61,084 nt of DNA from a virus, in the IMG/VR virus record IMGVR_UViG_3300032516_003835, positions 1 to 61,084 of that record; one strand, written 5' to 3'. Every line of letters starts with the position of its first letter. Within the stretch, counting starts at the first letter, position 1. A program made the position numbers and the translations under genes. This document shows positions 1 to 23,039 of this stretch, in pieces. The notes under the pieces were generated by a model. The model worked only from the letters and a program-made list of their open reading frames with translations, searched no databases and had not been told where the DNA came from.

Positions 1-141
1 CCCAACCCTCGGCGTCGTCAGCGCGCGGCCGGACGTCGAACGGCATGGCGGACATGACGGCCGGCCAGAGAGCGTCCGTGGCGGTTACCTCCCATCCGGG
101 CGGCCGGGGAGGAGCGCGAGGCCCCTCCCCGACTTAGCGGG
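1..141. repeat. Terminal direct overlap, left copy
   Basis: Bases 1-141 match 60944-61084 except for one position (C at 127, G at 61070). This is the overlap expected when a circular or terminally redundant genome is assembled as a linear contig, so the window closes on itself. The length equals a commonly used large assembly k-mer (141), which favours an assembly origin over a biological repeat. The FemAB-like gene ending at 60030 starts inside the right-hand copy. Confidence 0.9.
105..131. other. Stem-loop at the contig junction
   Basis: CGGGGAGG (105-112) pairs perfectly with CCTCCCCG (124-131) around an 11-base loop. In the right-hand copy of the terminal overlap the only mismatch falls in this stem and breaks one pair. 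On the minus strand there is no U-run after it, so it is not a convincing terminator. It lies between the gene at 147-620 and the FemAB-like gene. Confidence 0.5.
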
Positions 142-146
142 TTGTG

Positions 147-620
147 TTAAGTCGAGAACGTGGCTTCCGGCAGCTTGAAGGCATGGACCTGGATATCGCC
201 GAATCCGGCCGTCAGTGCGGCGCCGGTGGAGTTGCACAGAGACGAGCAGGAGACCGTCATCATGACGTCGAGGTAGTTCTCGCCGAGGGTCACCAGGCCG
301 GAGGACGTCGCGGCGATACCGAACCTGGCCATGTCGAACGGCCCGAAGAGCCAGTGGGACGCCCCCGAGGAACAGGTCTGGATCAGGAACGTCTCGCTGC
401 CGATACCCGAGCGCCAGAAATCGCCGGGCTGGACGGTCAGCCTCATGTAGCGAGCCTCGGCGACCTCGGAGGAGGCCACCCAACAAACCATGAACGCGAC
501 TCGGTCGTTGAGGTCGTACTCGAATGCGAAGCCGGAAGACGTGGTGAAGACGATGAAGCCCGTGGATTTGACATTGCTATCGCGCAGCATCTGCGCGACA
601 GAGACAGCCTGCACAGCCAT
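147..620 (-). CDS. Hypothetical virion protein, possible capsid decoration protein
   Basis: A 157-residue protein encoded directly downstream of the major capsid gene. The ATG at 620 is chosen because GAGGTGA lies 8 bases upstream; a GTG at 629 is an in-frame alternative. The sequence is rich in beta-branched, Ser, Thr and Gly residues, has no signal peptide and no membrane segment, and looks like an all-beta domain. Small beta-rich proteins in this position often decorate or cement capsids, but I recognise no specific family. It is the last head gene before the contig junction, and the FemAB-like gene follows it. Confidence 0.7.
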   Translation of the reverse strand: MAVQAVSVAQMLRDSNVKSTGFIVFTTSSGFAFEYDLNDRVAFMVCWVASSEVAEARYMRLTVQPGDFWRSGIGSETFLIQTCSSGASHWLFGPFDMARFGIAATSSGLVTLGENYLDVMMTVSCSSLCNSTGAALTAGFGDIQVHAFKLPEATFST

Positions 621-660
621 GCGGATCACCTCATAAGGAGCGGAACTCTGGAGCGGGAGC

Positions 661-1518
661 CTAGATGTTAATCTCCGTGGTGTAGACCGCGGTCATGCTG
701 ACCAGCTGACGCGGATCCATGACCTTGGCCCCGTAGACCAGCAGGCCCCTGACAACGTCGGAGAAGTTGTCGTGGGAGCGGTAAGCCTCATTCTCCAAGA
801 CCTGCTGGGCGAACGTGAGGGCGGGTTTGCGGCCGAACAGACAGTAGCTCGTATAGTCCGGCGCGGTGCCCGTGGTCACGACGTTGTTGCTCATGTAGAA
901 ATCCATCCCCAGGGTAGGCATGCTGCCGATGTAGCCGGTCTTGATGATGTCGACGTTGTCGGTCTTCTTCAGGATGTTGGCCAGAGTCAGGCTGAGTGCG
1001 AACCAGGGCGGGACGACGCCCCAGCGACCCTCATTCGGGACGTTGTTCTCGTTCATCAACTGGGCGACGTAGCCGATCAGGCCGATCACGTTGCCTGAGT
1101 TGACGGCGGTCGAGCCGTGGGACGTGATGCTCGCTCCGGCCTGGGTGTAGAGGTTGGCGACGTAACTGTCGATGACATGCCCGAGCCCGAAGGCGGCTCG
1201 GTCGGCCGCTTGTTCGAGGAGGTTCGGCGTTGACTGGACCTTGTCCACGTCCTCAACCCCAAAGGCGTAGTAGTGGCCCTGGTCAACGGTCAAGACGGTC
1301 TGGACGGACTTCAGGTGCTCCACGGTGATCGTGGTCTTGCCCGGAGCATAGGGACTGATCGTGATGTCGCCGATCTGGTTAACGTGGACCGTGTTGCCCT
1401 GGGCCGTGATCTCGCCCTCGTAGTCCGTGTTACAGAGGGCCTTAAAGACCAGGGCATCATCGAGATGTTCCATGAGACGGGCATCCCAGAGTTCCGGTAC
1501 GAAGTTCTTGGTGGACAT
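661..1518 (-). CDS. Major capsid protein (HK97-fold, P22 coat-like)
   Basis: A 285-residue protein forming the icosahedral shell. The N-terminus has the pattern of P22 coat-type capsid proteins: a short amphipathic start, a VHVNQIGDITISPY strand region and a helical stretch of Ala, Asp and Arg near residues 105-125. Length and position (scaffold upstream, connector genes downstream) fit. The ATG at 1518 has AAGGGGTG upstream. A perfect GC-rich hairpin (1547-1565) lies just ahead of the gene and may affect stability or level of the capsid message. The assignment rests on context and sequence pattern; a structure prediction would settle the fold. Confidence 0.85.
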   Translation of the reverse strand: MSTKNFVPELWDARLMEHLDDALVFKALCNTDYEGEITAQGNTVHVNQIGDITISPYAPGKTTITVEHLKSVQTVLTVDQGHYYAFGVEDVDKVQSTPNLLEQAADRAAFGLGHVIDSYVANLYTQAGASITSHGSTAVNSGNVIGLIGYVAQLMNENNVPNEGRWGVVPPWFALSLTLANILKKTDNVDIIKTGYIGSMPTLGMDFYMSNNVVTTGTAPDYTSYCLFGRKPALTFAQQVLENEAYRSHDNFSDVVRGLLVYGAKVMDPRQLVSMTAVYTTEINI

Positions 1519-1546
1519 TGGGAATCACACCCCTTGGAATCGAGAA

Positions 1547-1565
1547 GGCCCCGAATATCGGGGCC
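1547..1565 (-). terminator. Hairpin between scaffold and capsid genes
   Basis: GGCCCCGA pairs perfectly with TCGGGGCC across a 3-base loop (8-bp stem), followed on the minus strand by TTCTCGATT. The tail is only moderately T-rich, so it could be a leaky terminator, an attenuator or an mRNA-processing or stabilising stem that separates scaffold and capsid expression. Confidence 0.4.
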
Positions 1566-1590
1566 GGGCGAAGCGGGGCTGGCGGGTAGG

Positions 1591-2307
1591 CTAAGTCTTG
1601 CCGGCGAGGATGCCGTCGAGGTTGCCGGCTTTGTACTCCTTGTTGATCTGGTCCCTGGGCATCTTCTTGAGGGCCTCGCGGGTGATCGCCGTGCCCGTGT
1701 CCTTCGTGGGCGGCGGCGGTTTGGTTCCATCGGTCTTGAACCGGGCGTCCACGGCCTTGCCCAGGGCGCCCGCGAAGGCCTCCTCGAGGCGGCGCAGGTT
1801 GGCGTCCGTTGTCTCCTCGTCATGGCCGATCAGGTGATCGACGAGAGTCGACAATTCCGCCGGCAACGCCTTCTGCCCGATGTAGCCAAGGGCGCGGGTT
1901 TTGAGGGCCTCGCGGGCCCGGGCCGCTTTCTCGTTCACGAGTTCCTGCTCGATGGCCTCAATCCGCCTCTCGGGCTCGCTCTTGGGCGGGTTCAGCTTGA
2001 CGACTTCGGCCTGGACGAGGCCCGGCAAGGTCTTCTGCCGGTAGGTCTCCACGGCGTCGGTTACGCGCTTATCGGTCAGAGACTGGGCGAGCTTCTTGCC
2101 CTCGTCCGCGCTCTCCAGCCACCCTCTGACTCCGTCGGGCGTCATGAGTGCGGCTACGAGGGTCTGGGTTTCGGGCTTGTCCCTGCCGTCGGCGAGGAAC
2201 TTCTTGACCCCGTCAGCGGTTACCGGAACCAGGCTCGCGAGATGGGCCTGGACCTCCGGGTCGGCCTGGTGCTGTTCAAGCAACGCCTTAACCTCGGCTA
2301 GCGACAT
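1591..2307 (-). CDS. Capsid scaffolding protein (DUF4355-like)
   Basis: A 238-residue, highly charged, mostly helical protein directly upstream of the major capsid gene, the usual place for a scaffold. Residues around 115-145 have heptad-like spacing of Glu, Arg and Ala suggesting a coiled coil. The C-terminal part has a Pro-rich linker (KPPPPTKD) followed by a basic helical tail ending NLDGILAGKT, the sort of tail that contacts coat protein. ATG at 2307 is preferred over GTG at 2316 because AGAGGAG is well spaced from it. The family call is from pattern and position. Confidence 0.8.
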   Translation of the reverse strand: MSLAEVKALLEQHQADPEVQAHLASLVPVTADGVKKFLADGRDKPETQTLVAALMTPDGVRGWLESADEGKKLAQSLTDKRVTDAVETYRQKTLPGLVQAEVVKLNPPKSEPERRIEAIEQELVNEKAARAREALKTRALGYIGQKALPAELSTLVDHLIGHDEETTDANLRRLEEAFAGALGKAVDARFKTDGTKPPPPTKDTGTAITREALKKMPRDQINKEYKAGNLDGILAGKT

Positions 2308-2357
2308 GCGAGGCACTCTCCTCTGCCCTCCCCGGTGCGAGCCCGGGAAGTGCGTGG

Positions 2358-3650
2358 TTAGCGGATGCGGAACGAGCCGTCGAGGACCGGGACCCGGAGG
2401 GCCTCCGTTTCCCTACCCTCGAACTCTTTCAAGATAGCGAAAACTTTCCGGTAGACATAGAGGAGGAACTCGACCTCGTCGTCCCCATGAGCGTACTGCA
2501 TCGAGTGCTGCCCGAGGCAGAGGACGCCGCGGGCGAAAACCTCCTGGAGATAGAGCGTCTTCTGGGCCTGGTCACGGAACCGCAGGAACGACCAGGCGGG
2601 ATGCCCGGTGCAAGAAAGGTCGAGTTCGAGGCGCCCCGCGATCTCATTTGCGCCGACCAGGAGTTTGCGGCCGAACTCGGCGAGACGGTCCGGGACTTTC
2701 TCCCTCCGCAGCTTCAGCAGGGTGGCCTCCGCAGCCGCCAGGGAGAGGGTCTCGCCCGAGTAGGTGAACGAGCAGTGAACCCGCTCCATGAGGCTCATCA
2801 CGTCGTGCCGGCCGACAAGGGCGCTCAGCGGGTAGCCGTTGGCCAGGCCCTTGCCGAACGTCGCCAGGTCGGGCTCGACGCCGAAATGCTCCTGAGCCCC
2901 GCCCAACCCGAACCGGAAGCCGGTGATGACCTCGTCGAAGATCAGCAGGGCCCCGTTCTCGTGGCAGAGATCCCGGACACCCTCCAGGAAACCGGCCTCG
3001 GGATAAGCATGGTTCATCGGCTCCATAATGACGCAGGCTACCTGAGCCGGCCGGGCTTCGAAGATGCGCTCCAGGCTGGGCAGGTCGTTGTAGCGGAAGG
3101 CGTGCGTCAGATCCCTGACGGCCTGGGGAACTCCCAGGTTCCGGCCGCTGACTCCGACGGACCAATCCTGCCACCCATGGTACCCACAGGTAGCGACATG
3201 GTCTCTCCCCGTGTAGGCGCGGGCCAGGCGGATGGCCATGGAGGTGGCGTCAGAGCCATTTTTGCCGAAGCGGACGGACGCGGCGCAGGGAATCATCTCG
3301 ATCAGGAGCTCGGCGACCCGGATTTCCACCGGATGGGGCAGGCCGAAGAGGACTCCCGCCTTGCGCTGGGCATCGACCGCGGCCTCTACGTCCGGATCCC
3401 GGTAGCCGAGGAGGACGGCGGTCAGGACCGAGCCGAAGTCCAGGAACTCGTTCCCGTCAACGTCCCAGACCCGACAACCCTCGCCGCGCTCCAGGTACAG
3501 AGGGGAGACGCCGGGCGGGTAGGTAGTCCGCGACTTCGAGAATGTCCCCGTCCCGCCGGGGATGACGTCGAGGGCGCGGGCGAGCAGGGCCTCGGAGCGG
3601 GCGAAGCGGGTGTCTGCGCCAAGAAGCGCCTTCACGCCAGTGGCGAGCAT
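2358..3650 (-). CDS. Class-III PLP aminotransferase (glutamate-1-semialdehyde aminomutase-like)
   Basis: A 430-residue fold-type I PLP enzyme of the class-III aminotransferase/GSA-aminomutase group. The class signature is present: LIFDEVITGFRFG around residue 225, with the Asp that binds the PLP pyridine nitrogen, then DLATFGKGLANGYPLSALVG, whose Lys is the Schiff-base residue. Full length is kept. ATG at 3650 has AAGGAGGT upstream. It sits in an operon with a CMP-sugar synthetase, NeuB-like synthase and PseB-like dehydratase, so I infer it aminates a keto-sugar or a side-chain carbonyl in a nonulosonic-acid route rather than working in heme synthesis. The canonical Pse aminotransferase (PseC) is of the DegT/DnrJ family, so this is an unusual choice. 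Confidence 0.85.
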   Translation of the reverse strand: MLATGVKALLGADTRFARSEALLARALDVIPGGTGTFSKSRTTYPPGVSPLYLERGEGCRVWDVDGNEFLDFGSVLTAVLLGYRDPDVEAAVDAQRKAGVLFGLPHPVEIRVAELLIEMIPCAASVRFGKNGSDATSMAIRLARAYTGRDHVATCGYHGWQDWSVGVSGRNLGVPQAVRDLTHAFRYNDLPSLERIFEARPAQVACVIMEPMNHAYPEAGFLEGVRDLCHENGALLIFDEVITGFRFGLGGAQEHFGVEPDLATFGKGLANGYPLSALVGRHDVMSLMERVHCSFTYSGETLSLAAAEATLLKLRREKVPDRLAEFGRKLLVGANEIAGRLELDLSCTGHPAWSFLRFRDQAQKTLYLQEVFARGVLCLGQHSMQYAHGDDEVEFLLYVYRKVFAILKEFEGRETEALRVPVLDGSFRIR

Positions 3651-3847
3651 GCGGGAACCTCCTTCGTTTCGTGGAGGACGCAACCGAAGCTAGGATGGAC
3701 CCAACCGAAAGGCCACCATCCGCCCCCGGGCGGGTTCTTGGCGCACCATTTGAAGCCGACCTTGATGAGCAACTCAGTGAAAAAGGAAGGGGCCTCCGGG
3801 GACTCGACGTCACCCCAGAACTTGCAGACCTTGCACCTACCGTCCAC
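3632..3847 (-). CDS. Small cysteine-rich protein
   Basis: A 71-residue protein from a GTG at 3847 with GGGAGG seven bases upstream. It begins VDGRCKVCKFWGD and has two further Cys residues (FKWCAKN and SFGCVLHE), giving a CxxC plus two single Cys arrangement that could bind one metal. Trp and aromatic content is high. It resembles small CKxCKFW proteins common in Gram-positive phages, whose role is unknown. It overlaps the end of the CMP-sugar synthetase by 11 bases and the start of the aminotransferase by 19, so it is translated as part of the sugar operon. Confidence 0.6.
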   Translation of the reverse strand: MDGRCKVCKFWGDVESPEAPSFFTELLIKVGFKWCAKNPPGGGWWPFGWVHPSFGCVLHETKEVPACSPLA

Positions 3848-4535
3848 GCTGCGCCTCCCACTCCAGGATGTCCTCCATCCCGAACTCAGGCTTCGCCGGG
3901 TAGAGCGCCTCGAAGATGGCCCTGACCCGCTCGTAGTCCTCGGTCGTATCCACCGACCACTTGCGGGCCGAGAGGTCGGGCCCATGGCCGCAGTAGGTGA
4001 TCTCGTAGCGCTCCGGCTGCCGGCGCATGTAGCGAGTAACGTGCTCTCGGTCCTGCGGCCCGAATGTCCAGGTGTTGGCCTCGGCCAAAGCGGAACCCGT
4101 GAATGCCTCGACGTCGAAACCGTCCGGGTAGCCCGCCCCGGCCTGACCCGTATTGACGGTCAGGTCCGCCCCGAAGCGCAGATGATCCCCGATTACCAGG
4201 TCGATGACCTCCGGGTCAGACAGCGGGCAGTCGCCGGTGAGACGAACGATAGTGTCGGCCTTCCCGCTACCGTGGATGCGATGGGCCTCGCTAAACCGCC
4301 GGAGCACGTCGTCTCGCGGCCCCAGGCAGTAGGCCACCCCGAGCCGCTCGCAGAGGTCGGCAATGGCCTGGTCCTCGGGTTCCCCGGTCGTCGCGACGAC
4401 AAGCTTGTCGATAAGTTTGCTGCGGCGGACCCGCTCGATCTGCCGGGCCAGCATCGGTTCACCCAGGAGTGGGAGAAGGGCCTTGCCGGGCAGGCGGGTC
4501 GAGGCCATGCGGGCCTGGATGATGGCGAGGATCAT
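3837..4535 (-). CDS. CMP-nonulosonate (acylneuraminate) cytidylyltransferase, SpsF/PseF-like
   Basis: A 232-residue nucleotidyltransferase that would activate a nonulosonic acid with CTP to the CMP-sugar. It starts MILAIIQARMASTRLPGKAL, the nucleotide-binding signature of CMP-NeuAc/KDO synthetases and SpsF proteins (Arg and Lys contact the CTP phosphates). Further family motifs are VVATTGEPEDQAI, RGPRDDVLRRF-type (here GPRDDVLRRF), and VRLTGDCPLSDPEVID with the metal-binding Asp. ATG at 4535 has GGGAGGG upstream and overlaps the stop of the upstream membrane-protein gene (ATGA). Together with the NeuB-like gene it defines a nonulosonate pathway. Confidence 0.9.
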   Translation of the reverse strand: MILAIIQARMASTRLPGKALLPLLGEPMLARQIERVRRSKLIDKLVVATTGEPEDQAIADLCERLGVAYCLGPRDDVLRRFSEAHRIHGSGKADTIVRLTGDCPLSDPEVIDLVIGDHLRFGADLTVNTGQAGAGYPDGFDVEAFTGSALAEANTWTFGPQDREHVTRYMRRQPERYEITYCGHGPDLSARKWSVDTTEDYERVRAIFEALYPAKPEFGMEDILEWEAQRGR

Positions 4536-4747
4536 CCGCAGACCCTCCCTGCGACCCACTCCCAGAGTTCGGCGAGGGCCGCCCCGCCCAGGAGGCAGCA
4601 CAGTGCGAGGGCGAGAAAGCCCGCCACTCCCGCCAGGCACCACGCCGCAAAGAGTAGGAAATGCCCGCTCTCCAATCCCAGCGCGAGAATGAGGAGGAGC
4701 AGGCCGAGGGCGAACCACCGAGTCAGCGTGGTGTCCGGCGAGGGCAT
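4532..4747 (-). CDS. Small membrane protein
   Basis: A 71-residue protein with two or three hydrophobic helices (around residues 13-30 and 32-58) and no recognisable domain. Its ATG overlaps the TGA of the aldo/keto reductase (TGATG) and its own stop overlaps the ATG of the CMP-sugar synthetase, so it is translationally coupled inside the sugar operon. Possible roles are membrane anchoring of pathway enzymes or a small flippase-like or channel protein, but nothing in the sequence decides this. Confidence 0.65.
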   Translation of the reverse strand: MPSPDTTLTRWFALGLLLLILALGLESGHFLLFAAWCLAGVAGFLALALCCLLGGAALAELWEWVAGRVCG

Positions 4748-5541
4748 CACGCGAGCCACCTCCTGGGATCGAGCAAGACCTCGTCCACCGTCGGAAGGTC
4801 CGGCTCCCAATCCAGAGGCTCGACCGCGAGGACCTCCGCGAGCTGCGCGGCTGAGTTGACACCGACTACGGCGAGGTCGATGAAGTCGAGGCCCAGGACG
4901 TAGCCCAGTGCCCCCTGAAGTGGGGTCAGCCCCCGCCTGGCGCAGGCCCGGCGGAAGGCGCCCAGGGGCGCGGCCAAGCCCGCCAGGTGCGCGGGTAGTT
5001 CGGCGGGCGCCATGAGCAAGGATCCCTGCAGGAACACGCTCCGGGCCTGGATCTCGATTCCCCTGCCATGGATCTCGCGGAGGAGGTCGACGAGGCGGCG
5101 GTCAAGCATGCTTACCGGGGCCTGGATGACGTCGGGCTGGGGTAGGAGATCCATCGCCCGGCGGACGTCGGCCTCGGTGTAGCAGCTGACGCCGATCTTG
5201 TCTGCCCAACCGGCGGCGCGGAACCGGACCAATTCCGGCCAGGCGTCGAGGTTCTCTGGGTCGTGGAGCAGGATCGCATGGAGACTCCGGGTCCGGAGCT
5301 CCGTAAGGGTGTGGTAGGCGTCTCGGCCATCGGCGGTCTTTGTCGTGAGCCGGAACAGGCCGGGCGACATGTAGCGGCCGAGGAGACGTTGGCAGCCGTA
5401 GGCCGGGGCCGTGTCAATGTGGGCGATCCGGCCCTCGGCGGCGGCGATGATGGCGGCGACCTCGGACTCGGCCGGCCGGCCGTCGTTCGCGACGCCGTAT
5501 TCGGCGACGAAAGAAGCGGTGCCAAGGGACAGTGAAACCAT
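4747..5541 (-). CDS. Aldo/keto reductase
   Basis: A 264-residue TIM-barrel NAD(P)H oxidoreductase. The catalytic tetrad is visible: Asp in HIDTAPAYG, Tyr in the same motif, Lys in LTTKTAD and His in LLHDPENL. The C-terminal AVVGVNSAAQLAEVL matches the cofactor-binding end of the family. ATG at 5541 has AGGAGG upstream. In this operon it probably oxidises or reduces a sugar or side-chain carbonyl. Such reductases accompany SpsF- and NeuB-type genes in some bacterial surface-glycan clusters; the exact substrate is not readable from sequence. Confidence 0.85.
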   Translation of the reverse strand: MVSLSLGTASFVAEYGVANDGRPAESEVAAIIAAAEGRIAHIDTAPAYGCQRLLGRYMSPGLFRLTTKTADGRDAYHTLTELRTRSLHAILLHDPENLDAWPELVRFRAAGWADKIGVSCYTEADVRRAMDLLPQPDVIQAPVSMLDRRLVDLLREIHGRGIEIQARSVFLQGSLLMAPAELPAHLAGLAAPLGAFRRACARRGLTPLQGALGYVLGLDFIDLAVVGVNSAAQLAEVLAVEPLDWEPDLPTVDEVLLDPRRWLA

Positions 5542-5555
5542 GGGGCAACCTCCTA

Positions 5556-5936
5556 TCAGGCAGGACGGGGCGCGGTCATGCAACTCGTGTAGGTTCTGGG
5601 CGGCATCCGAACCTCAATGGCCCGGACGTAGTCCTCAAAGGTCATGCCCAGCAGGTCGAGGGCCTCGGCGAGTCTCGGATTCTCCTCGAAGTAGCCTTCG
5701 GCAATCTCCCGAGCGGTCGGGAACTCACCTGGGACGGTATTACAAAGAGGGACGATGACCCTGGAGCCTCCCTCGTGAAAAAAGACCGCTTCCTGGACAG
5801 GACCTGACTGCGGGGGCCCGGAATCTGGGGTGACGGAGAGCGCCGGGTCCCCCCTATCGTCCCGATCCGCCCAACAATGAAGCACCCCCGGAGATAACGG
5901 CTCCGAGGGTGCGGATGGAGGGGAGGGAGAACCCAC
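5556..5936 (-). CDS. Hypothetical protein with uncertain start
   Basis: The C-terminal ~75 residues read like a real helical protein (FPTAREIAEGYFEENPRLAEAL, then FEDYVRAIEVR), ending 14 bases upstream of the aldo/keto reductase. The N-terminal part is low-complexity and runs through a terminator-like hairpin (5882-5912), and no start has a convincing ribosome site. Candidates are ATG 5936 and GTG 5885; an atypical start nearer 5800 is possible. No family recognised. Confidence 0.45.
   Translation of the reverse strand: MGSPSPPSAPSEPLSPGVLHCWADRDDRGDPALSVTPDSGPPQSGPVQEAVFFHEGGSRVIVPLCNTVPGEFPTAREIAEGYFEENPRLAEALDLLGMTFEDYVRAIEVRMPPRTYTSCMTAPRPA
5882..5912 (-). terminator. Candidate terminator hairpin
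   Basis: GCACCC-C-CGGAG pairs with CTCCG-A-GGGTGC, about 11 pairs with one mismatch around a 7-base loop. On the minus strand it is followed by TTCATTGTTG, a weak U-rich tail. It would end or attenuate the PseB-NeuB-PGDYG unit before the aldo/keto reductase genes. Confidence 0.4.
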
Positions 5937-5938
5937 CC

Positions 5939-6046
5939 ATGCTAGCCTACGTTCTATGGGGCCTGCTTCTGGCCCTAGCTGTGAAAATCCTTCTATCCCT
6001 GAAGGACATCGACATCCATGGCCGCGTCAAGCTTCGACTGAAGTAG
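5939..6046 (+). CDS. Possible 35-residue membrane peptide on the opposite strand
   Basis: A plus-strand ORF starting MLAYVLWGLLLALAVKI and ending HGRVKLRLK: one transmembrane helix followed by a basic tail. GGAGGGAG lies upstream but about 12 bases away. It fills the otherwise empty stretch between the gene at 5556-5936 and the PGDYG-like gene and is divergent from both. Small single-helix peptides of this shape exist as toxins or regulators, but chance is not excluded. Confidence 0.3.
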   Translation: MLAYVLWGLLLALAVKILLSLKDIDIHGRVKLRLK

Positions 6047-6088
6047 CGTGACCGGGCCCGGCGCTCTCCGGGTCGTCCACGCATGGCC

Positions 6089-6490
6089 TCAATCTCTTCC
6101 CGCCCCAACTGCCTGCGGCGCGGGCAAGGGAGGTCGTGTCATCGGGTCTCCCAGTGCCTCATAGGTCTGCTCGAAGATGTCGGGTTCGCAGAAGTCGCGC
6201 TTGCCGTTGGCGTTCCTAATGATGTAAGCGCCGACGTTGACCCGACGCCATCCGTTATCGGCAGTCTCAATGATTAGTGCTTCCACGGGACGGGGAGTCT
6301 CGCGTAAACCGCCGCTCCGAATGGCGGCGACCAATCCTCCCATGGTGTCATCCCAAGGCTCCCGCGGAGCACTCCGCACTAACATGCCGTCAAGCGCGGC
6401 GGCTAGATAGACGGCGTTTTCTTCGGTCAACCGGATGGCCTCGACCTCAGTGGGACGCCTGCGGATCCGTAGCCAATTCACTTCGGACAC
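6089..6490 (-). CDS. PGDYG-motif-like phage protein
   Basis: A 133-residue protein resembling the small PGDYG-type proteins common in phages: a VEAIRLTEEN segment near the N-terminus, then VNVGAYIIRNANG in place of the usual PGDYII turn, and CEPDIFEQTYEAL at the end. Function is unknown in the family. The GTG at 6490 is preferred because AAGGAG is 9 bases upstream; it overlaps the end of the NeuB-like gene by 13 bases. A Pro-rich C-terminal tail follows the domain. Its presence inside the sugar block may be incidental. Confidence 0.65.
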   Translation of the reverse strand: MSEVNWLRIRRRPTEVEAIRLTEENAVYLAAALDGMLVRSAPREPWDDTMGGLVAAIRSGGLRETPRPVEALIIETADNGWRRVNVGAYIIRNANGKRDFCEPDIFEQTYEALGDPMTRPPLPAPQAVGAGRD

Positions 6491-7383
6491 GGTCTCAATC
6501 TCCTTCCTCCCCAATCCGCGCGCCGGGCGATGACTCGCCAGTCGCGCTCGTTCTCCTCTACGCGCTTGACCCCGTCGCCGAGGGCGAGTTCCAGTTGGCG
6601 AACCTCATCCACCATGACCTGAAAGTCGGCGGACTCCAGGGCGAAGTGATGGTCAGGACCGGGACGCTCGGGGTTGTCTGTGAAGTGCTTTTCGATGACC
6701 TTCGCGCCCAAGGCTACCGCGCCGAGAACGTCGAGAGAGCCGGGCGCGTGGCTGCTGAAACCGAGGACGGCCTTGGGAAGCGCCTCCGCGTAGGTCTGAA
6801 GCACCTTCAGGTTCAGGTGACGGTAGGCGTCGGGGCTGCCGTCGTAGTTGAGGTTGCACTGCATGAGAACATGCGGGACTCCCTCATCGGCCAGGATGCC
6901 CGCCACGCACTGGACCTCGTGCGCGGTGGCGGCCCCGGTCGAGACGATGAGGGGCTTCCCCTTCCGGGCGAGGTAGCCCAGGAAGCCGAGCTCGACAAGG
7001 TCGCCGGAACCGACCTTGTAGGCGTGGACGTAGGGTTCCAGGGCGTCCGCCGCCGCTTCGTCGTAGGGCGTCGAGAGGAAATCGACTCCGGCCTGTTTGC
7101 AGACTCCGGACAGTGTCGGAATCCAGTCGAGCGGCGTCTCGGCCTTCTCGTAGACCTCGTAAAGCTCAGGCCGGCCGATAGAGGCGAACCCTTCCCGGCT
7201 GGCCAGGGTTTCGGCCTTGAAGTGCTGGAACTTGACGGCGTTCGCGCCGGCGATGGCCGCCAAGCGAATGAGATCCGAGGCGCGGTTAAGGACACCGTTG
7301 TGATTCGCTCCGATGTCGGCGATGAAGTAGACGGGGTAGCCGGGGCCGACACGGTGAAGCCGGGAGAGTTGAACCTCGGTCAC
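6478..7383 (-). CDS. NeuB-family nonulosonate synthase lacking the SAF domain
   Basis: A 301-residue enzyme of the sialic/legionaminic/pseudaminic acid synthase family, which condenses phosphoenolpyruvate with a 6-carbon acetamido sugar to a 9-carbon acid. The TIM-barrel motifs are present: FIADIGANHNG (the usual AEIG Glu is Asp, as in some SpsE-like members), AVKFQHFKAETLA, FLSTPYD, YKVGSGDL, LIVSTGAA, FSSHAPG and VIEKHFT, the last two carrying the metal-binding His residues. The protein ends at RADWGGRRLRPCPK, where the C-terminal SAF (antifreeze-like) domain of ~340-350-residue NeuB proteins would begin. GTG at 7383 overlaps the stop of the PseB-like gene and has AAGGAGG upstream. Confidence 0.9.
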   Translation of the reverse strand: MTEVQLSRLHRVGPGYPVYFIADIGANHNGVLNRASDLIRLAAIAGANAVKFQHFKAETLASREGFASIGRPELYEVYEKAETPLDWIPTLSGVCKQAGVDFLSTPYDEAAADALEPYVHAYKVGSGDLVELGFLGYLARKGKPLIVSTGAATAHEVQCVAGILADEGVPHVLMQCNLNYDGSPDAYRHLNLKVLQTYAEALPKAVLGFSSHAPGSLDVLGAVALGAKVIEKHFTDNPERPGPDHHFALESADFQVMVDEVRQLELALGDGVKRVEENERDWRVIARRADWGGRRLRPCPK

Positions 7384-8366
7384 GAAACCATCCTCCTTAC
7401 CTCTTCGGCTGTCATGAGGTTCTCGGGCGAGTCGCTTGTGTAGCGCCAGCCGGGGGGCCGGATCTCCGGACGATCGGCGGTCGCCTTGGGCCCGTATCCC
7501 ACGACATGCCACGGGAACTGCGGCTCGATGACGTAGCGGGAGCCCCGGTCTGTCGTCCGCCGGGCCTCCTCCTCCGAGATCAGGCACTCGTGGAGCTTCT
7601 CGCCGGGCCGAATGCCGGTAACCCTGACCCAGGCCGCCGGCGCCACGACCCGGGCCAGGTCGGCGACAAAGCAGGACCGGAGTTTGGGGACGAATATCTC
7701 ACCGCCCTCGCCACTGAAGAGGGCCCCCAGAACAGCCGCGGCGGCGTCCGCCGGCGTCAACCAGAACCGGGTCATGCCCTCCGCCGTGAGGGTGACCTGC
7801 CCATCCGCGGCGGCCTGCCTCCGCCAGAGTTCCACGACCGATCCACGGCTCCCGAAGACATTGCCATAGCGAATGACACTGAAGCGCGTCCGGCGGTCTC
7901 CCGCGTAGGCGTTCGCCCCGATGAAAAGACGCTCGGCGCAAGCCTTGGTCGTCCCGTAGAGGTTTGCCGGCTCGACGGCCTTGTCTGTGCTCACGGCCAC
8001 CACCCGGCGCACATCCCGCTCCAGGGCGGCCTCGATCACGTTCTCGGCTCCGAAAACATTCGTCCGAACGGCCTCGAAGGAGTCGTACTCACAGGCTTCG
8101 ATCCGCTTCATGGCCGCCGCGTGGATGACGTAGTCCACTCCCCGGAAGGCCATGAGGAGGCGGTCCTTGTCGCGGACGTCGCCCAGGAAGAAGCGTAGGC
8201 GGTCGTCATCCTCGAACTCGGCTCTCATCTGGGCTTGCTTGTACTCATCGCGCGAGAGGATGACGATCCGGGCCGGGCAGTCTTCGCGGGGCAGGAGCTC
8301 CCGGACGAGGGCGTGACCCAGGGTGCCGGTGCCGCCGGTAATGAGCAGGGTCTTGTCGGTGAGCAT
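7380..8366 (-). CDS. UDP-GlcNAc 4,6-dehydratase, PseB-like SDR enzyme
   Basis: A 328-residue extended SDR of the PseB/FlaA1 type, which converts UDP-GlcNAc to the 4-keto-6-deoxy sugar (with C5 inversion in PseB). The NAD-binding LLITGGTGTLGHAL, FFLGDVRDKDRL, HAAAMKRIEACEY, TNVFGAENVIEAA, VSTDKAVEPANLYGTTKA and RYGNVFGSRGSVV motifs are all present; Tyr and Lys of the catalytic pair lie in YGTTK. GEKLHECLISEEE near the C-terminus is typical of this subgroup. It is the first gene of the sugar block, about 25 bases after a terminator hairpin, with GGGAGG before the ATG. Confidence 0.92.
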   Translation of the reverse strand: MLTDKTLLITGGTGTLGHALVRELLPREDCPARIVILSRDEYKQAQMRAEFEDDDRLRFFLGDVRDKDRLLMAFRGVDYVIHAAAMKRIEACEYDSFEAVRTNVFGAENVIEAALERDVRRVVAVSTDKAVEPANLYGTTKACAERLFIGANAYAGDRRTRFSVIRYGNVFGSRGSVVELWRRQAAADGQVTLTAEGMTRFWLTPADAAAAVLGALFSGEGGEIFVPKLRSCFVADLARVVAPAAWVRVTGIRPGEKLHECLISEEEARRTTDRGSRYVIEPQFPWHVVGYGPKATADRPEIRPPGWRYTSDSPENLMTAEEVRRMVS

Positions 8367-8390
8367 GGGGGCCTCCCGGTGATGGGCTGA

Positions 8391-8428
8391 AAACGAAACG
8401 ACCCCGGGGCGCTAGGCCACCAGGGTCG
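8391..8428 (-). terminator. Intrinsic terminator upstream of the sugar block
   Basis: CGACCCTGG pairs with CCGGGGTCG (one G-U pair) across a loop, followed on the minus strand by TTTCGTTTTC. It ends the MuF-HNH segment just before the PseB-like gene, so the sugar genes either need read-through or antitermination or have their own promoter, which I cannot identify in the ~25 bases left. Confidence 0.65.
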
Positions 8429-8447
8429 CTAAGGGTTGTTGCCGCCG

Positions 8448-8664
8448 CTACTCGCGGTCCTTACTCTTCAGGAACTCACCGATGTCGAGCCGCTTATGGT
8501 CGAGGACCAGGGACAGCATTGACCTGATCCGGAGCCGGAGACCGGGCGTGGCCTCCGGGTCCTGGTAGGCGTCCCGGATGACGTAGAGAAGGCGCCGGAC
8601 GAGCGAGATGTCAGAAAGGTCGAGCTTGACGACGTCAGGCGAGGGAGGTCACCCCCGAGGGCAT
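8448..8664 (-). pseudogene. Small gene interrupted by an apparent single-base frameshift
   Basis: An ATG at 8664 overlaps the TAA of the HNH gene (TAATG) and reads MPSGVTSLA before a TGA. One base out of phase, the sequence continues DVVKLDLSDISLVRRLL and on to DIGEFLKSKDRE, a plausible 60-residue helical protein that has no start codon of its own. Removing one T in GCCTGACGTC joins the two parts. The total length (217 bases) is 3n+1, consistent with a one-base insertion. It could be a broken gene, a sequencing error or a recoding site. Unknown function. Confidence 0.5.
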
Positions 8665-9290
8665 TATACCCCCTCGGATAAGGAGAGTGGAATCTGTCGG
8701 GCTGCACGGCTTCGGGTTGCGTGAAGTCTGCGGTGACACGACTGGCAGAGTCTCATAAGGTTGCCGATGGCGTTGTTGGCCTTATTGTTGTCGATGTGAT
8801 GGACCACGCCAGGCTTCCCGCCGCAAACCTCGCAGATGTCCGGCCGCCCGCTTTCCTCCCAGACCACCTGATGAACACGCTTCGTCGGATGCGCTGGATG
8901 CCTTGAGGAATATCGGATGTAGCCAGCATCGTCGGCCGCCATGTAGCCATTGAACATGGCATTCGCCGGACCCGAGTAGTGCTTGCCCCGGCACTCATTG
9001 GAGCAGTAGACATGAGCCCGGCTACTGCGCTGGAATTCCCGCCCGCAGACCGGGCACCGGATGGTGCGCTGCTTCCGGCGGTAGTCGAACATGCATCGCC
9101 TAGAACAGAACCGGCGGAGGCTTCTGTCTGGCACGAAAGACGTCCCACAATTTCCGCAGGTCTTAGGTGTGAGGCGCGGGCCGGCCAGCGCGGCCCCGTA
9201 ACACTCCCGCGAACAGTAAACCTGCCTTCGTTTGCTTCTGTCGATGGCCTCGAATGGTTTGCCGCACCGCCCGCAATGGAGAATGGCCAT
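8664..9290 (-). CDS. HNH endonuclease with N-terminal zinc-ribbon repeats
   Basis: A 208-residue protein. Three Cys-rich modules come first (CGRCGKPFEAI...YCSREC, CGNCGTSF...FCSRRC, CPVCGREF...YCSNEC), each able to hold one zinc and probably to contact DNA. A C-terminal HNH nuclease domain follows with CEVCGGKPGVVHHIDNNKAN and LCQSCHRRLH, containing the catalytic His pair and Asn. ATG at 9290 has GGAGGTG upstream. It is placed between the MuF gene and the sugar block and flanked by hairpins, the usual look of a free-standing homing endonuclease, which could have helped bring in the adjacent genes. Confidence 0.88.
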   Translation of the reverse strand: MAILHCGRCGKPFEAIDRSKRRQVYCSRECYGAALAGPRLTPKTCGNCGTSFVPDRSLRRFCSRRCMFDYRRKQRTIRCPVCGREFQRSSRAHVYCSNECRGKHYSGPANAMFNGYMAADDAGYIRYSSRHPAHPTKRVHQVVWEESGRPDICEVCGGKPGVVHHIDNNKANNAIGNLMRLCQSCHRRLHATRSRAARQIPLSLSEGV

Positions 9291-9329
9291 GGCCGCACCT
9301 CCGATAGTGTTTCCGAAGGGGTAGTGAGG

Positions 9330-9352
9330 AAGGGGGCTCGGATAACCCCCTT
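9330..9352 (-). terminator. Hairpin between MuF and HNH genes
   Basis: AAGGGGG and CCCCCTT pair around a 9-base loop. There is no clear U-run on either strand, so it may be an attenuator, processing site or simple stem rather than a strong terminator. Confidence 0.35.
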
Positions 9353-9395
9353 GTCGGGCTGCAGACCCTATCCTCACGAGAACATCATACCACTG

Positions 9396-10310
9396 CTAGC
9401 CCGAAACCCGGTTCGCCTTCCACTCCGCGTAGGTCATCCAAGGGATGACGCCTTCTCCCCTGGCCCGGCGGACCGTAGGTTCGTAGCCCGCGATCTTGCC
9501 ACGTAGCGCGCATCGGCAATTGCAGTCCTCTTCTGGCACCCCGAAACCGCCTGGGGCTTTGGCTTTCAACCCCCGGATTTCGAAGAACCCGTCCACCGGC
9601 ACCGTCTGGCCGTCGAGTTCCTGATGACTCAATCTGGTGCGTTCGTCCAAAGTTGCACTCCACGTTTTCATGGTCGGCACCCCGCGCCGCTCCGCCTGCT
9701 CCAGGGCCGCGAGTCTGCCCTCCTGCGTCACCCGATGGGCCTCGGTCTGCGCCACCCTGATCGCCTTGGCCGCGTCGCCGTCGAGAACCCCCTTGATCCG
9801 CCGGGCCATGTCGTCGTAACCCTCGCCCCGGATGAGGCCCTGGGTGATCTCGGATCGGATCCGGGTGACGACCTGGGCCCGGTTGGCCTGCAGACGCTCG
9901 GAGAGTTTCATGCCTGAGATCGGGTTCTGGACCGAGGCCGCGATCGTGGCCGGGTTCAGCAGCGTCCAGCCGAGCCGGGCCTGGGCCTGCCGCTCCAGGG
10001 CGTAGGCCGTCCGCCAGTAAGCCTCGGAGTAAGCGTTGCCGGAGCCGACCGTGACCGCCTTGCCGGCCTGGGCGTAGAGGCGGTTCATCTCGGCCCTAAC
10101 CGAGGCGGTCAGGCTTTCCAGGCGCCGGTACTTGGCGAGCTCGACATAACTCATCTTCCCGCCCACGGCGTAGCGGGCGGCGTAATCAGCGAGCGTGCCG
10201 CGCAGTTCGCGCAGCGTCCGGGCATAGGCGCGGAGGACCTCGCGTTGCGTGCCGGCGCTGAGGCGCTCGATGGCCCGCTCGCCCTGCAGGAGATCTCGCT
10301 CCAGACTCAC
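9396..10310 (-). CDS. Head morphogenesis protein, SPP1 gp7/MuF family
   Basis: A 304-residue minor head protein. The C-terminal MuF-like region holds the family pattern: AIRVAQTEAHRVTQEGRL, then TWSATLDERTRLSHQELDGQ and the Cys motif EEDCNCRCALRG. The N-terminal ~150 residues are helical. In SPP1 gp7 binds the portal and DNA and is packaged in the head. GTG at 10310 has AGGAGG upstream. The position after the portal gene is standard. Confidence 0.9.
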   Translation of the reverse strand: MSLERDLLQGERAIERLSAGTQREVLRAYARTLRELRGTLADYAARYAVGGKMSYVELAKYRRLESLTASVRAEMNRLYAQAGKAVTVGSGNAYSEAYWRTAYALERQAQARLGWTLLNPATIAASVQNPISGMKLSERLQANRAQVVTRIRSEITQGLIRGEGYDDMARRIKGVLDGDAAKAIRVAQTEAHRVTQEGRLAALEQAERRGVPTMKTWSATLDERTRLSHQELDGQTVPVDGFFEIRGLKAKAPGGFGVPEEDCNCRCALRGKIAGYEPTVRRARGEGVIPWMTYAEWKANRVSG

Positions 10311-10322
10311 GGCGCAGACCTC

Positions 10323-10715
10323 CTACCGCTGGCGCTTCAGACAGACGAGGACCCGAGCGAGGTCGTCAATAACTTGCTCTTGGAGCGCTTCTTCGAACGA
10401 GTCTTTCGCGGTTTGCCAGGTATGCAGTTTCGCGTGGAGGAGTTCGTGGACGACGTCGGCCTCCATGTCCTGCACGAAAACCTCAGCGCCCGTGCCGCAC
10501 TCGTCCGGGCAGTCGAGCGGACTCCTGACCTCCAGGAGACCCGTTTTCTTCTCCCATGTGTAGACGAGTGAGGCCGAACTGTCCGGGGTCATGTTCCGGG
10601 CCCGGCCGATGCGGACCGCGAACTGCCAATCTCCCAGCCCCAGCCGGTCCTGCCACTCCCGGACACACTTGGCCAGACCATCCTCGTCGAACACGACCGC
10701 CTTCGGCTCACTCAC
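10323..10715 (-). CDS. Small zinc metallopeptidase-like protein (minimal zincin)
   Basis: A 130-residue protein with the zinc-protease motif HELLHAKLH near residue 90 and a preceding Asp/Glu helix; the third ligand is probably a Glu in SFEEALQEQ. The Cys pair CPDECG is ~20 residues upstream of the motif. The layout resembles SprT/WSS1-like minimal zincins found in phages. GTG at 10715 overlaps the portal stop by 8 bases with GGAG upstream. Between portal and MuF it may act as a head-maturation protease, since no other prohead protease is visible here; that role is inference. Confidence 0.6.
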   Translation of the reverse strand: MSEPKAVVFDEDGLAKCVREWQDRLGLGDWQFAVRIGRARNMTPDSSASLVYTWEKKTGLLEVRSPLDCPDECGTGAEVFVQDMEADVVHELLHAKLHTWQTAKDSFEEALQEQVIDDLARVLVCLKRQR

Positions 10716-12273
10716 CGGCCGCTCCGCTCTGATCCGGGCTACCCTGGGGAGGCTCGTCGCCATCGTCGGTTGGTTCCTCCTTCTCGCCCTCGCCCTCAGC
10801 CGGCACTCGATCCAGGTCCACCCTGCCCTCAGCCGCCATGTCGCGAAGCTCCTTCTCCGAGTCGGTCACGAAGGACAGGAGGTCGAGGCGCGTCTTCTCG
10901 GACACCAATCCCTTGAGCAGGCCCGTGGTCTGGGCCTCATCGTTGAGGTTCAGAGGGAAGTTTCGGGTAAACTGCATCGTGACCGCCTTGTAGTCGATCG
11001 CCTGGCCGCGCTTCCGCCAGACCGTGGCCAGGACCTCGAACATGCGCCGGCTGGCGGCCGAGTGCTTGCGCTCGGTGGTGGCGCAGGAACTCTCCAGGTT
11101 AAAAAGTTTGAACTTCAGGGCTATACCGCTTACGGTGCCCCCGAACGCCTCGTCGTCGAAATTGACCGACTTCGCGAAACGAAGAATATTCCTGTCGAGC
11201 CTGTCAAGGTGGTGCTCAATGATCGCGTCATCGAGGGATTTGGTGAGGAACCTGATCTCGTGGGGCTGACCGCCGGCGGCCGTCGGGATGATGAGAATGC
11301 CGGTCTTCCGGGCCCGCTCGATAACGTCGTCCCCTAGATCGACGCCATAGGCGGCCATGTAGGCGAGCCGAAACTGCTCGATCTCGGAATTCACGTCGGA
11401 GACGGCTCGGTCGTAGGCGTCAATCAAAGCGACGACCCTGGAGGCGTCGCCCTGGCGCTCATCATTGTTCGGGAACGCAATCAGCGGGCACAGGTCGAAC
11501 AGGTGCGGCCGGGGATTCGCGGGCGCCCCGCTGTCGAGTTCGTAGTCTCCGCCCGAGCCCTGGACGTAGTAGTAGGCGTGGCTCGGGGTGTACCACTCGG
11601 CCCGCCAAACGTCTACCCACTCGCCGCCCCGGAAGAGCGGGGCCTCATAGTAGCGGAGGGCGTGCTCGGCCTCCCAGGCGTTGCCCGTGGTGACCGGGAT
11701 AACCTCCCAGGGCGGGATGGCCATGCAGTAGGGTAGACCGTCAGCCTGCGCGTCCCCGCCTCGCACATAGAGCAGGCGGGCGCCGTAGCCGCAGATCGCC
11801 TCCATCTTGCCGGTCTCGGCGTCCAGGTCGGCCAGGTTGGATCGCAAGACGAAGTCCTGCAAGGTCTTGTTGTGGTCGGCGTAAGCCGGGTTCTCGTCGG
11901 CCGTGATCTCACGGGGTCTCTGTCCGAGGAGGCGACCCATAAGACCGGGCTGGGTCTCGGTGACGTAACCGGTCTTATCTAAACCGTAGCTGACGGGCCG
12001 ACCCATGAAGTACCCTAACTTGGTGTCGATGATCGCGCCAAAAAAATCGTTGGCTAATTGGGCGTTCACTTTCGTCGTCGAATACTCGAAGGTGCGGCCA
12101 TAGATCGGCACCCCGTCCCGAGTCGCGCAGTAGCGGCGGTAGAGGGCGGCCATGGCGTCCCGGCTAGCTTGGTGGGCGGCGATGAGCGATCCCACCACGG
12201 CCGCGGTGGGCTGACCGCCATTCCCGGCGAGTTCCGCCTGGGCTTGCAGGATGGCTCGGGACAGACTGTCCAT
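10708..12273 (-). CDS. Portal protein (SPP1 gp6-like)
   Basis: A 521-residue portal forming the dodecameric DNA channel at one capsid vertex. Family signs are YYRRYC-like N-terminal helices, NAQLANDFFGAIIDTKLGYF followed by GRPVSYG, and a long acidic C-terminal tail (EGEGEKEEPTDDGDE). Length and position between terminase and MuF genes agree with Phage_prot_Gp6 portals. Confidence 0.9.
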   Translation of the reverse strand: MDSLSRAILQAQAELAGNGGQPTAAVVGSLIAAHQASRDAMAALYRRYCATRDGVPIYGRTFEYSTTKVNAQLANDFFGAIIDTKLGYFMGRPVSYGLDKTGYVTETQPGLMGRLLGQRPREITADENPAYADHNKTLQDFVLRSNLADLDAETGKMEAICGYGARLLYVRGGDAQADGLPYCMAIPPWEVIPVTTGNAWEAEHALRYYEAPLFRGGEWVDVWRAEWYTPSHAYYYVQGSGGDYELDSGAPANPRPHLFDLCPLIAFPNNDERQGDASRVVALIDAYDRAVSDVNSEIEQFRLAYMAAYGVDLGDDVIERARKTGILIIPTAAGGQPHEIRFLTKSLDDAIIEHHLDRLDRNILRFAKSVNFDDEAFGGTVSGIALKFKLFNLESSCATTERKHSAASRRMFEVLATVWRKRGQAIDYKAVTMQFTRNFPLNLNDEAQTTGLLKGLVSEKTRLDLLSFVTDSEKELRDMAAEGRVDLDRVPAEGEGEKEEPTDDGDEPPQGSPDQSGAAGE

Positions 12274-12285
12274 GCCGCACCTCGC

Positions 12286-13932: not shown

Positions 13933-14506
13933 CGGGGTTGACCTCGCTCACCACCCGGATCAGGCGTTTAGTGATGGTCATGGAGAGTTCTTCGATCATG
14001 TAGGCGGGTAGGGCGTCGCCTTCGCGAGGCGCCTTGCCGGTAAGGAGATGGGCTTTCTCCAGGCTTTGGGCGAGGACCCCGACCAAGAAGCGCCCCCAAG
14101 ACGCGCCGGCCTGATTGTGTTTCTCGGCACGCTTGCCCGCCGGGAGTTCGTCGGGGTCAGCCATGGCGATCGCGACCTTGTGGGCCGCCTTCTCGGCGAG
14201 TCCGTAGAGTTGGTCAGCCAGGGCGGTCACCCGACCGGTCAGGGTCTCAGCTACCCGCTCCGTAGCCAGAGCCACCGCCCGGTCCTGGACCTGCTGCCCC
14301 ATCTGCCGCAGCTTTTTGCCGGTACGGGGTACCGTTCCGGGCTTCGGGGGCGTTCCAACCGGAACAGCCGTTCCAACTCTGGCCCCGTACCATCGGTGGA
14401 GGGTCGTGAGCGGAACACCCGTCTGCCGGGCGGCCTCTCGCTGGGATGTGGCCTCGGCTAGAGCCAGGGCCTCGGTGATCCGCTGCTCGGTCCAGCGCTT
14501 GGCCAC
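13865..14506 (-). CDS. Terminase small subunit
   Basis: A 213-residue DNA-recognition subunit. An N-terminal helix-turn-helix (RITEALALAEATSQREAARQ then TTLHRWYG) would bind the packaging site, followed by a helical oligomerisation region. GTG at 14506 is preferred because a GGGGGA sequence lies upstream; TTG at 14545 is an alternative but sits against the terminator stem. It is the first gene of the late operon. Confidence 0.75.
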   Translation of the reverse strand: MAKRWTEQRITEALALAEATSQREAARQTGVPLTTLHRWYGARVGTAVPVGTPPKPGTVPRTGKKLRQMGQQVQDRAVALATERVAETLTGRVTALADQLYGLAEKAAHKVAIAMADPDELPAGKRAEKHNQAGASWGRFLVGVLAQSLEKAHLLTGKAPREGDALPAYMIEELSMTITKRLIRVVSEVNPDVAATVRSRLAEASATPDSAPN

Positions 14507-14543
14507 CGTTCCCGTCCCCCATCCCCTGCCCGTATTCGTCGCC

Positions 14544-14577
14544 AAATGAAAAGGGCACCCCTAGACCCCGGATGCCC
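14544..14577 (-). terminator. Intrinsic terminator upstream of terminase genes
   Basis: GGGCATCC pairs with GGGTGCCC (one G-U) and is followed on the minus strand by TTTTCATTT. It separates the early/middle unit ending with the sigma-like gene from the late operon. Read-through from upstream would need antitermination. Confidence 0.65.
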
Positions 14578-14607
14578 TGGGTTGTACGGTGAATCTGCCT
14601 TGCCCCG

Positions 14608-14636
14608 AGTTTAGCCCGAACCTACCCGCCGCGCAA
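14608..14636 (-). promoter_or_regulatory. Candidate late promoter
   Basis: On the minus strand TTGCGC and TAAACT are separated by 17 bases, in the 136-base gap between the sigma-like regulator and the terminase genes. The match is partial, as expected if an activator such as the 14714-15208 product is needed. The predicted start lies upstream of the terminator hairpin at 14544-14577, which counts against it. Confidence 0.25.
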
Positions 14637-14713
14637 GGCCGAAACGGCCCAAAATCCTACCCATTTCCTACCGCGCCAAAGGGCACTACCCTGGGCGGAT
14701 GGCGATTCCGTTT

Positions 14714-15399: not shown

Positions 15400-15410
15400 G
15401 GATGCCTCCA

Positions 15411-22662: not shown

Positions 22663-22691
22663 TCTCCCCGCCTCCCTCGTCGGTCTCGGCG

Positions 22692-23036: not shown

Positions 23037-23039
23037 CGT

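Follow-up and report, generated by a model that had tools for sequence, protein, structure and literature searches.

Introduction

Nonulosonic acids (NulOs) are made by dedicated pathways in bacteria, and several phages are known to act on them. In Bacillus subtilis the transfer of legionaminic acid needs SpsF (PMC7439481), a Vibrio NulO cluster without NeuA contains an SpsF-like cytidylyltransferase fused to an aldo/keto reductase (AKR; PMC7371886), and a Legionella O-antigen cluster contains a GSA-type aminotransferase together with NeuB and PseG (PMC3694923). On the phage side, epaA/epaB in prophages (PMC12053666) and phage O-acetyltransferases (PMC6586298) act on NulO that the host makes for its capsule. 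The idea of phage-encoded virion glycosylation comes from mycobacteriophages, for which capsid glycosyltransferases have been suggested (PMC11256854), in an abstract that mentions no NulO synthesis; PMC9599517 has no match to sugar terms. Here we analyse IMG/VR virus record IMGVR_UViG_3300032516_003835 (called the window, i.e. all 61,084 bp of it; G+C content 66.5%), in which NulO-type genes, centred on a block at 2358-8366, lie in the head gene region of a tailed phage. Unlike this module, the epaA/epaB and O-acetyltransferase genes modify host-made NulO and neither synthesise nor transfer one (PMC12053666, PMC6586298).

A first-pass annotation of the sequence had remarked that such a set in a phage structural operon was not known to it as described. 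Our literature searches, which did not extend to the bulk of subscription literature or to bioRxiv as such, found no phage-borne NulO synthesis and transfer in a head region either; what is new here, as far as these searches reach, is a phage head region that combines the greater part of a NulO synthesis pathway with a protein of predicted sialyltransferase fold. The NulO enzymes and the predicted fold together suggest that the phage may sugar-coat a protein, possibly one of its own particle. The explanation that we favour, and believe about as strongly as we doubt it, is a flagellin-glycosylation-type NulO module in two pieces, whose CMP-sugar would be moved by a GT42/Maf-fold protein, most likely onto a virion protein.

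Results

NulO-type genes on either side of the scaffold and capsid genes

The six products named in the first-pass annotation are present at 2358-8366, all on the minus strand, and the profile search that it had proposed returned Pfam matches to PseB-like, NeuB, AKR, cytidylyltransferase and aminotransferase families. Read from 8366 to 2358, the block lies between the MuF/HNH genes and the scaffold gene and begins with a PseB-like UDP-GlcNAc 4,6-dehydratase of 328 aa (7380-8366; PF02719, 295 bits; SDR motifs TGGTGTLG and YGTTK), whose best NCBIfam match is PseB TIGR03589 (380 bits, cut-off 407.75), followed by a NeuB/PseI-type synthase of 301 aa with a TIM barrel (6478-7383; PF03102, 212 bits, cut-off 22). 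After an interruption come an AKR (4747-5541; PF00248, 49 bits) of the type that adjoins SpsF-type cytidylyltransferases in bacterial NulO clusters, a short hydrophobic, membrane-like open reading frame (ORF) of 72 aa (4532-4750) that overlaps its neighbour by 4 bp on each side and has no family match in profile scans, a cytidylyltransferase of 232 aa as candidate CMP-NulO synthetase (3837-4535; PF02348, 98 bits), and a class-III (GSA-type) PLP aminotransferase of 430 aa, hereafter AT3 (2358-3650; PF00202, 175 bits; motif TFGKGLANG). We take the cytidylyltransferase to be of the SpsF type. With the gene starts chosen in our analysis, the gene overlaps noted in the first-pass annotation are found as well, at 4 bp each, between PseB and NeuB, between NeuB and the gene that follows it, and on the two sides of the membrane-like ORF. 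The block is not contiguous: its enzymes are interrupted by a small phage protein like phrog_419 (6089-6481, minus strand; PHROGs match), which is probably not part of the sugar pathway, by a terminator-like hairpin that separates the two halves (5912-5882; 12 pairs, 9 of them G-C; a consensus match only), and by short ORFs such as a possible small Cys-containing one after the cytidylyltransferase (3632-3846, minus strand, recognised by reading only). The G+C content at third codon positions is 0.82-0.85 for the five enzymes and 0.80-0.86 for the head genes from TerL to g147, except for HNH (0.69), with TerS at 0.76; being this close to the head genes, the NulO genes do not have the look of a fresh import.

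The set is larger than the first-pass annotation gave. Positions 1-141 of the record repeat 60944-61084 as a direct overlap of the ends (141 bp, 1 mismatch), so that the genome is, judged from its sequence, most likely complete and circularly permuted, and the minus-strand head genes run on across the join into 60998-58470. There, three further minus-strand genes encode a FemAB-like acyltransferase of 322 aa (60030-60998; PF13480; TIGR04421, 192 bits, cut-off 250), a candidate NulO transferase of 352 aa, named for its predicted fold (58961-60019), and a GNAT acetyltransferase of 166 aa (58470-58970) with PseH TIGR03585 as best NCBIfam match (30 bits, cut-off 93). The NulO-related genes are in this way split into two pieces, one on either side of the scaffold and capsid genes. 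Identity of this GNAT is 44-47% to those within NulO cassettes of other viral loci (L168-L171; loci are given by our L numbers) and 26-34% to those that follow NeuB in 18 of 80 loci from cellular genomes. An assembly chimera or bacterial contamination might be suspected in an uncultured virus record of a public collection that is known from sequence alone, and is hardly credible here, where head genes stand on both flanks, the ends overlap by 141 bp and similar arrangements recur in other contigs.

A predicted sialyltransferase fold

No family of PHROGs, Pfam or NCBIfam matches the 352-aa protein. Its AlphaFold2 model, based on 54 aligned relatives, has a mean pLDDT of 83 (between residues 41 and 200, blocks of ten residues reach 82-97); residues ~35-211 are predicted to adopt the GT42 sialyltransferase/Maf fold and the C-terminal part to be helical. 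In a Foldseek search against solved structures all 12 matches at E <= 0.001 were to the sialyltransferases CstI and CstII (E 3e-6 for CstII), and a second aligner gave Z scores of 11.0 for CstI and 10.9 for Maf from Magnetospirillum (PDB 5mu5). CstI and CstII, which we take to belong to family GT42, use CMP-NeuAc. The likeness to these enzymes and to Maf (5mu5) is one of predicted fold, with no significant sequence match. The PF01973 domain of Maf has itself been described as similar to Cst-II (PMC11339370), and this domain has 0 matches in the window record.

A profile of the 352-aa family (A2) matched 8 of 22 viral records searched, 3 of the 8 being rows of the profile and 5 not. The family was found in 1 of 50,697 named phage records and in 0 of 398 genomes of a betaproteobacterium's phylum (E <= 1e-15, a search that had no positive control). 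NeuB occurs in 9 of 80 transferase-family loci versus 0 of 80 capsid-relative loci (Fisher p 0.003), two sets that were chosen differently and have mean lengths of 9.8 and 12.2 kb; at 1e-6, neither NeuB nor PseB, the aminotransferase, the cytidylyltransferase or the AKR was found in the latter (80 of 102 kept). One relative of the family is a Microcystis phage gene annotated as a type 11 methyltransferase (L264, PP496355.1; 8905-9708), which lies directly before the terminase genes in a stretch of 15.1 kb in which no NulO synthesis gene is annotated. In L176, the alignment shows the family member at 12696-14456 to be split by an intein-like insert that immediately follows its conserved motif GVDMA.

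Similar cassettes in other phages

A look for the same gene set in other phages, also proposed by the first-pass annotation, revealed similar cassettes adjoining terminase, portal or capsid genes in further uncultured phages. Scans of IMG/VR returned 5 loci with NeuB, 14 with AT3 and 1 with the cytidylyltransferase (CMP in gene orders) as query; the resulting viral NulO set was chosen by similarity to the window, and L170, L171 and L179 are near-copies. The gene orders include TerL-AKR-CMP-AT3-GNAT-NeuB-PseB-portal-MuF-protease in L168, TerL-GNAT-mini-NeuB-PseB-AKR-CMP-AT3-Maf-like-portal in L169-L172 (L172 begins within the cassette), protease-head-GNAT-PseB-amidotransferase-AKR-CMP-AT3-mini-NeuB-transferase family in L176, where the N-acetyl sugar amidotransferase (6220-7287) is above the cut-off of TIGR03573, and TerL-CMP-NeuB-portal in L182. 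In L168, L170, L176 and L182 the cassette stands beside packaging or head genes and on their strand. The L170 type has a PF01973 (MptE/Maf domain) gene between the aminotransferase and portal genes; PF01973 is above cut-off in 6 further of 21 NulO records, and 14 of the 21 have a transferase-fold gene, counted as an A2 family member or a PF01973 match above cut-off, which is not always near the cassette. The cytidylyltransferase and AT3 share one long frame (673-775 aa) in L005, L173, L174, L175, L177, L178 and L181, and likewise in several bacterial loci.

Among the 50,697 named phage records, NeuB gave 3 matches, all below 32% identity, PseB 6 at 1e-20, and the cytidylyltransferase 4, none over 80% of the query. 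Class-III aminotransferases occur in 66 of these records, with more than 80% of the query matched in 12, and an aminotransferase of this broad class would by itself not be telling. In a tree of 42 AT3 rows the window and 7 other phage rows, which differ from it in G+C content, form a clade (100/99) that sits within a set including bacterial rows, and a further 8 phage rows make up a second one (100/97); the long row L066 was dropped and bacterial sampling was thin. The clade of phages that differ in G+C content suggests, at the level of sequence, that AT3 has been exchanged among phages. An earlier tree of 35 rows, in which phages stood apart from bacteria, was rejected, as its bacterial rows came from NeuB relatives and closer ones exist.

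Missing steps and other points against the favoured explanation

Several observations weigh against a complete pathway that ends on the virion. Among the matches listed, the NCBIfam scores of the window enzymes all stay below the cut-offs. The DegT-type aminotransferase PseC (PF01041) has no match in the record, with the control positive in 14 of 14 genomes; neither has the hydrolase PseG (TIGR03590), which was found in 2 of 2 bacterial control genomes and in 0 of the 21 viral records, a set that includes several fragments. In L177 and contigs like it the terminase gene is opposite in direction to the cassette, so a shared late operon is, by these gene orders, not general across phages (L005, L173, L178 and L181 resemble L177, with terminases read by eye only). 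For the transferase, 71 of 80 loci of its family have no NeuB in the available flanks (80 of 184 kept). That the 352-aa protein is related in sequence to Maf-like proteins was rejected, since hhalign against three Maf-like rows gave a probability of 0.3%. The fold is also common to pyrophosphokinases (Z 10.4 for MptE-type HPPK, 9.2 for thiamin pyrophosphokinase); because it is close to CstI and to pyrophosphokinases alike, the predicted fold fits a NulO transferase without proving one, and the activity is a candidate.

PseF TIGR03584 scores 39 bits against a cut-off of 206, and a CTP_transf_3 cytidylyltransferase of the SpsF type is there instead. Since PseC and PseG were not found, the phage is, on the sequence features tested, no member of the classical Pse pathway, however it may function. 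The first-pass annotation had proposed that the phage makes a CMP-activated NulO de novo or tops up a host pathway; a NulO-type module inside the head gene region stands, and de novo synthesis is no more than possible with PseC and PseG not found. Either AT3 and another enzyme would replace PseC and PseG, or the host would supply both steps. A DegT-like gene stands alongside AT3 in L005, L173, L178 and L181 (by profile in L181, by reading in the others), so AT3 need not replace PseC; as a simple PseC substitute it is unproven, since bacterial L275 and phage L181 carry both types.

The absence of PseC and PseG from the matches in the phage record is also what one would expect if the phage merely provided limiting enzymes to a host NulO pathway, with PseC and PseG from the host and no phage transferase required, and the NeuB relatives found in many bacteria (best 80 of 119 kept) agree with this. 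We consider such a top-up improbable: five enzymes plus a GNAT exceed a bottleneck gene, and the transferase-fold gene in 14 of 21 NulO records argues against a transferase-free version.

A NeuB without SAF domain

Loss of the NeuB active site, which the first-pass annotation had named as a finding that would undo its proposal, was looked for by alignment, and the catalytic motifs of the barrel are kept. The equivalents of K53, Q55, T110, K129, S132, Y186, S213, H215, E234, H236 and D247 are retained, and the changes are E25 and E134 to D, F112 to Y, N74 to R, N184 to L and F288 to I; E25 to D is common to the phage NeuB and the bacterial AT3-type relatives. Of the N-terminal-domain contacts listed in PMC6795526, 7 of 12 are identical (Q55, T110, K129, Y186, S213, H215, E234). 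Among the NCBIfam models, PseI-type TIGR03586 gave 189 bits (cut-off 340) and NnaB TIGR03569 223 bits (cut-off 400).

The SAF domain (PF08666) has no match anywhere in the window record and is found in 8 of the 21 viral NulO records. Bacterial NeuB relatives are ~356 aa long, with a C-terminal extension that contains the SAF domain in the aligned ones; the tail after KHF has at least 110 residues in 80 of 80 bacterial-relative loci versus 70 in the phage NeuB. An RR...RP tail motif was matched in 78 of these 80 loci, and the phage tail 'RRADWGGRRLRPCPK' aligns to 'RRA...LRPCP' of the bacterial proteins. The arginine of the phage tail RRLRPCPK aligns with Arg314 of Neisseria NeuB, described as important for catalysis and as the single residue of SAF to extend into the active site (PMC6795526); 'LRPCPK' is the sole SAF vestige. 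The tail match is based on 5-6 residues and could partly be due to chance, which is made less likely by the same kind of truncation, ending in 'LRPAL' (by eye), in the NeuB of viral contig L004 (48% identical). The mini-NeuB of the L170/L176 type (193-201 aa) keeps the K-x-Q, S-x-H and E-x-H residues, and the predicted fold of the L176 protein is that of NeuB/PseI, the best 12 structure matches of its model (pLDDT 78) being NeuB, PseI and SpsE.

A truncated NeuB and the shorter NeuB-like proteins of other phages might also be taken as signs of a decaying hitch-hiker, i.e. host-captured genes that are losing function, with SAF, PseC and PseG gone. This seems to us quite improbable, in that all five enzyme genes have uninterrupted frames, intact motifs and a codon use like that of the phage, the Arg314 equivalent is kept in the truncations of two sequences 48% alike, the 193-201 aa forms keep active-site residues with an L176 model that is NeuB/PseI-like, and the aminotransferases of several phages form one clade.

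Bacterial counterparts

From the NeuB relatives found by pattern in cellular genomes we retained the best 80 of 119, two of these loci coming from one contig. In these 80 loci, which differ in length, PseB is present in 56, the cytidylyltransferase in 33, the AKR in 22, AT3 in 19 and all five enzymes in 11. A bacterial cassette with the order PseB-AKR-CMP-AT3-RmlD-like SDR-NeuB (L021, L051, L069, L080) has five enzymes in common with the phage and no PseC or PseG among the genes read by eye; it differs from the phage in the RmlD-like SDR, in a ~356-aa NeuB with a long tail and in an AT3 of a distant clade. AT3 relatives of up to 59% identity over the matched part occur in 14 of 398 genomes of a betaproteobacterium's phylum (E <= 1e-90), with 55-57% in four loci of that phylum (tblastn); the best phage AT3 is 52% identical.

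In 2 of 7 loci from this phylum (L275, L276) the order is PseB-PseC-AKR-CMP-AT3-PseG-NeuB. PseG is above its NCBIfam cut-off in the two loci, as are PseC and PseI in L275, and PseC of L276 was recognised by eye. L275 also has a FemAB-like gene (31% identical to that of the phage) and a PseD/Maf-like one, at 62 bits against a cut-off of 670, and L274 has AKR and AT3 beside flagellar rod/hook-like genes (by eye). We read L275 and L276 as islands that would serve flagella, and it is from the gene sets of L274-L276 and the published facts on SpsF that we term the phage module flagellin-glycosylation-like. The flagellar-type Pse islands share with the phage PseB, AKR, an SpsF-type cytidylyltransferase, AT3, NeuB/PseI and a PseH-type domain, and in L275 the FemAB-like and Maf-like genes; the phage differs in having no recognised PseC or PseG, a SAF-less NeuB, a phage-type transferase-fold protein and a placement around capsid genes. 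The legionaminic acid pathway of B. subtilis has the SpsE (NeuB) and SpsF types in common with the phage and differs in its destination, the spore crust, and in including SpsC, SpsD, SpsG and SpsM (PMC7439481).

The phage and its other genes

The window encodes terminase, portal, MuF, scaffold, major head, head-closure, neck and tape measure proteins and DnaB, as in tailed phages. On the minus strand, the MuF head protein (9396-10310, family match) lies upstream of the block, and the scaffolding protein (1591-2316, phrog_172), the major head protein (661-1518, phrog_267) and g147 (147-629) follow downstream. An integrase (43031-44221, phrog_1) and a repressor-like regulator (40610-41137, phrog_8), both on the plus strand and recognised by PHROGs match, indicate on sequence that the phage is temperate. 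Relatives of its backbone are few: 1 for MuF, 1 for TerL (L263, in whose 13.4 kb TerL alone matched) and 0 in the search with DnaB.

Further minus-strand genes were noted in passing. An ORF at 14714-15676, just upstream of the terminase genes, matches sigma-70 region 4 and is a possible late regulator. A 1045-aa ORF (23040-26177) has a ParB-like stretch at residues 195-327, the remainder being without explanation. There are also an SbcC-/SbcD-like pair (33663-35819 and 36505-37767), a DUF5131 protein (PF07505; 29726-30829), and metallo-endopeptidase/endolysin-type domains in two ORFs (21637-23394 and 47123-47941).

Discussion

In the explanation that we favour, PseB would dehydrate UDP-GlcNAc, AT3 or a host PseC would add the amino group, the PseH-like GNAT would acetylate the sugar, a host enzyme or an unrecognised one would remove UDP, the SAF-less NeuB would add phosphoenolpyruvate, and the SpsF-type enzyme would charge the sugar with CMP to give a pseudaminic/legionaminic-like CMP-sugar, which the AKR and FemAB-like proteins may help to tailor. 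The GT42/Maf-fold protein would then transfer the sugar onto a cytoplasmic protein, as Maf does to flagellin. The placement of the genes around the scaffold and head genes is our reason for expecting expression in the late, head-making phase and a virion protein as acceptor.

The main rival is that the module alters the host surface (flagellin, lipopolysaccharide or capsule) in lysogenic conversion or superinfection exclusion, with the transferase acting on a host acceptor. It stays alive because the phage, with its integrase and repressor genes, is temperate, and it has precedent in the action of epaA/epaB (PMC12053666) and phage O-acetyltransferases (PMC6586298) on host capsule. A separate unit could be bounded by two hairpins, one upstream of PseB (z -1.9) and one at 5912-5882 (z -3.0), and in L177-type contigs the cassette and the terminase gene diverge. 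Against it, the NulO genes of the window share a strand with the head genes among which they are placed, with 4-bp overlaps, and on the circular map 14 kb or more separate them from integrase and repressor; the minus strand of 1-15000 has no sigma-70-like promoter; the cassettes of L168, L170, L176 and L182 again adjoin packaging or head genes on the same strand, and no O-antigen flippase or polymerase was recognised among the window ORFs scanned, which were not all of them. We regard a host-surface role as rather unlikely, and return to decoration of the virion.

Tentatively, and with some doubt, we extend the favoured explanation to several groups of tailed phages, which would combine NulO synthesis by a SAF-less NeuB with a largely phage-specific GT42/Maf-fold transferase in the head region and decorate their own capsid or tail. 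The loss of the SAF domain with its essential arginine retained in a short tail is a natural test of the role of that domain. If the target is the virion, the module would give phages a surface chemistry that is new for them and would affect adsorption and the charge of the particle.

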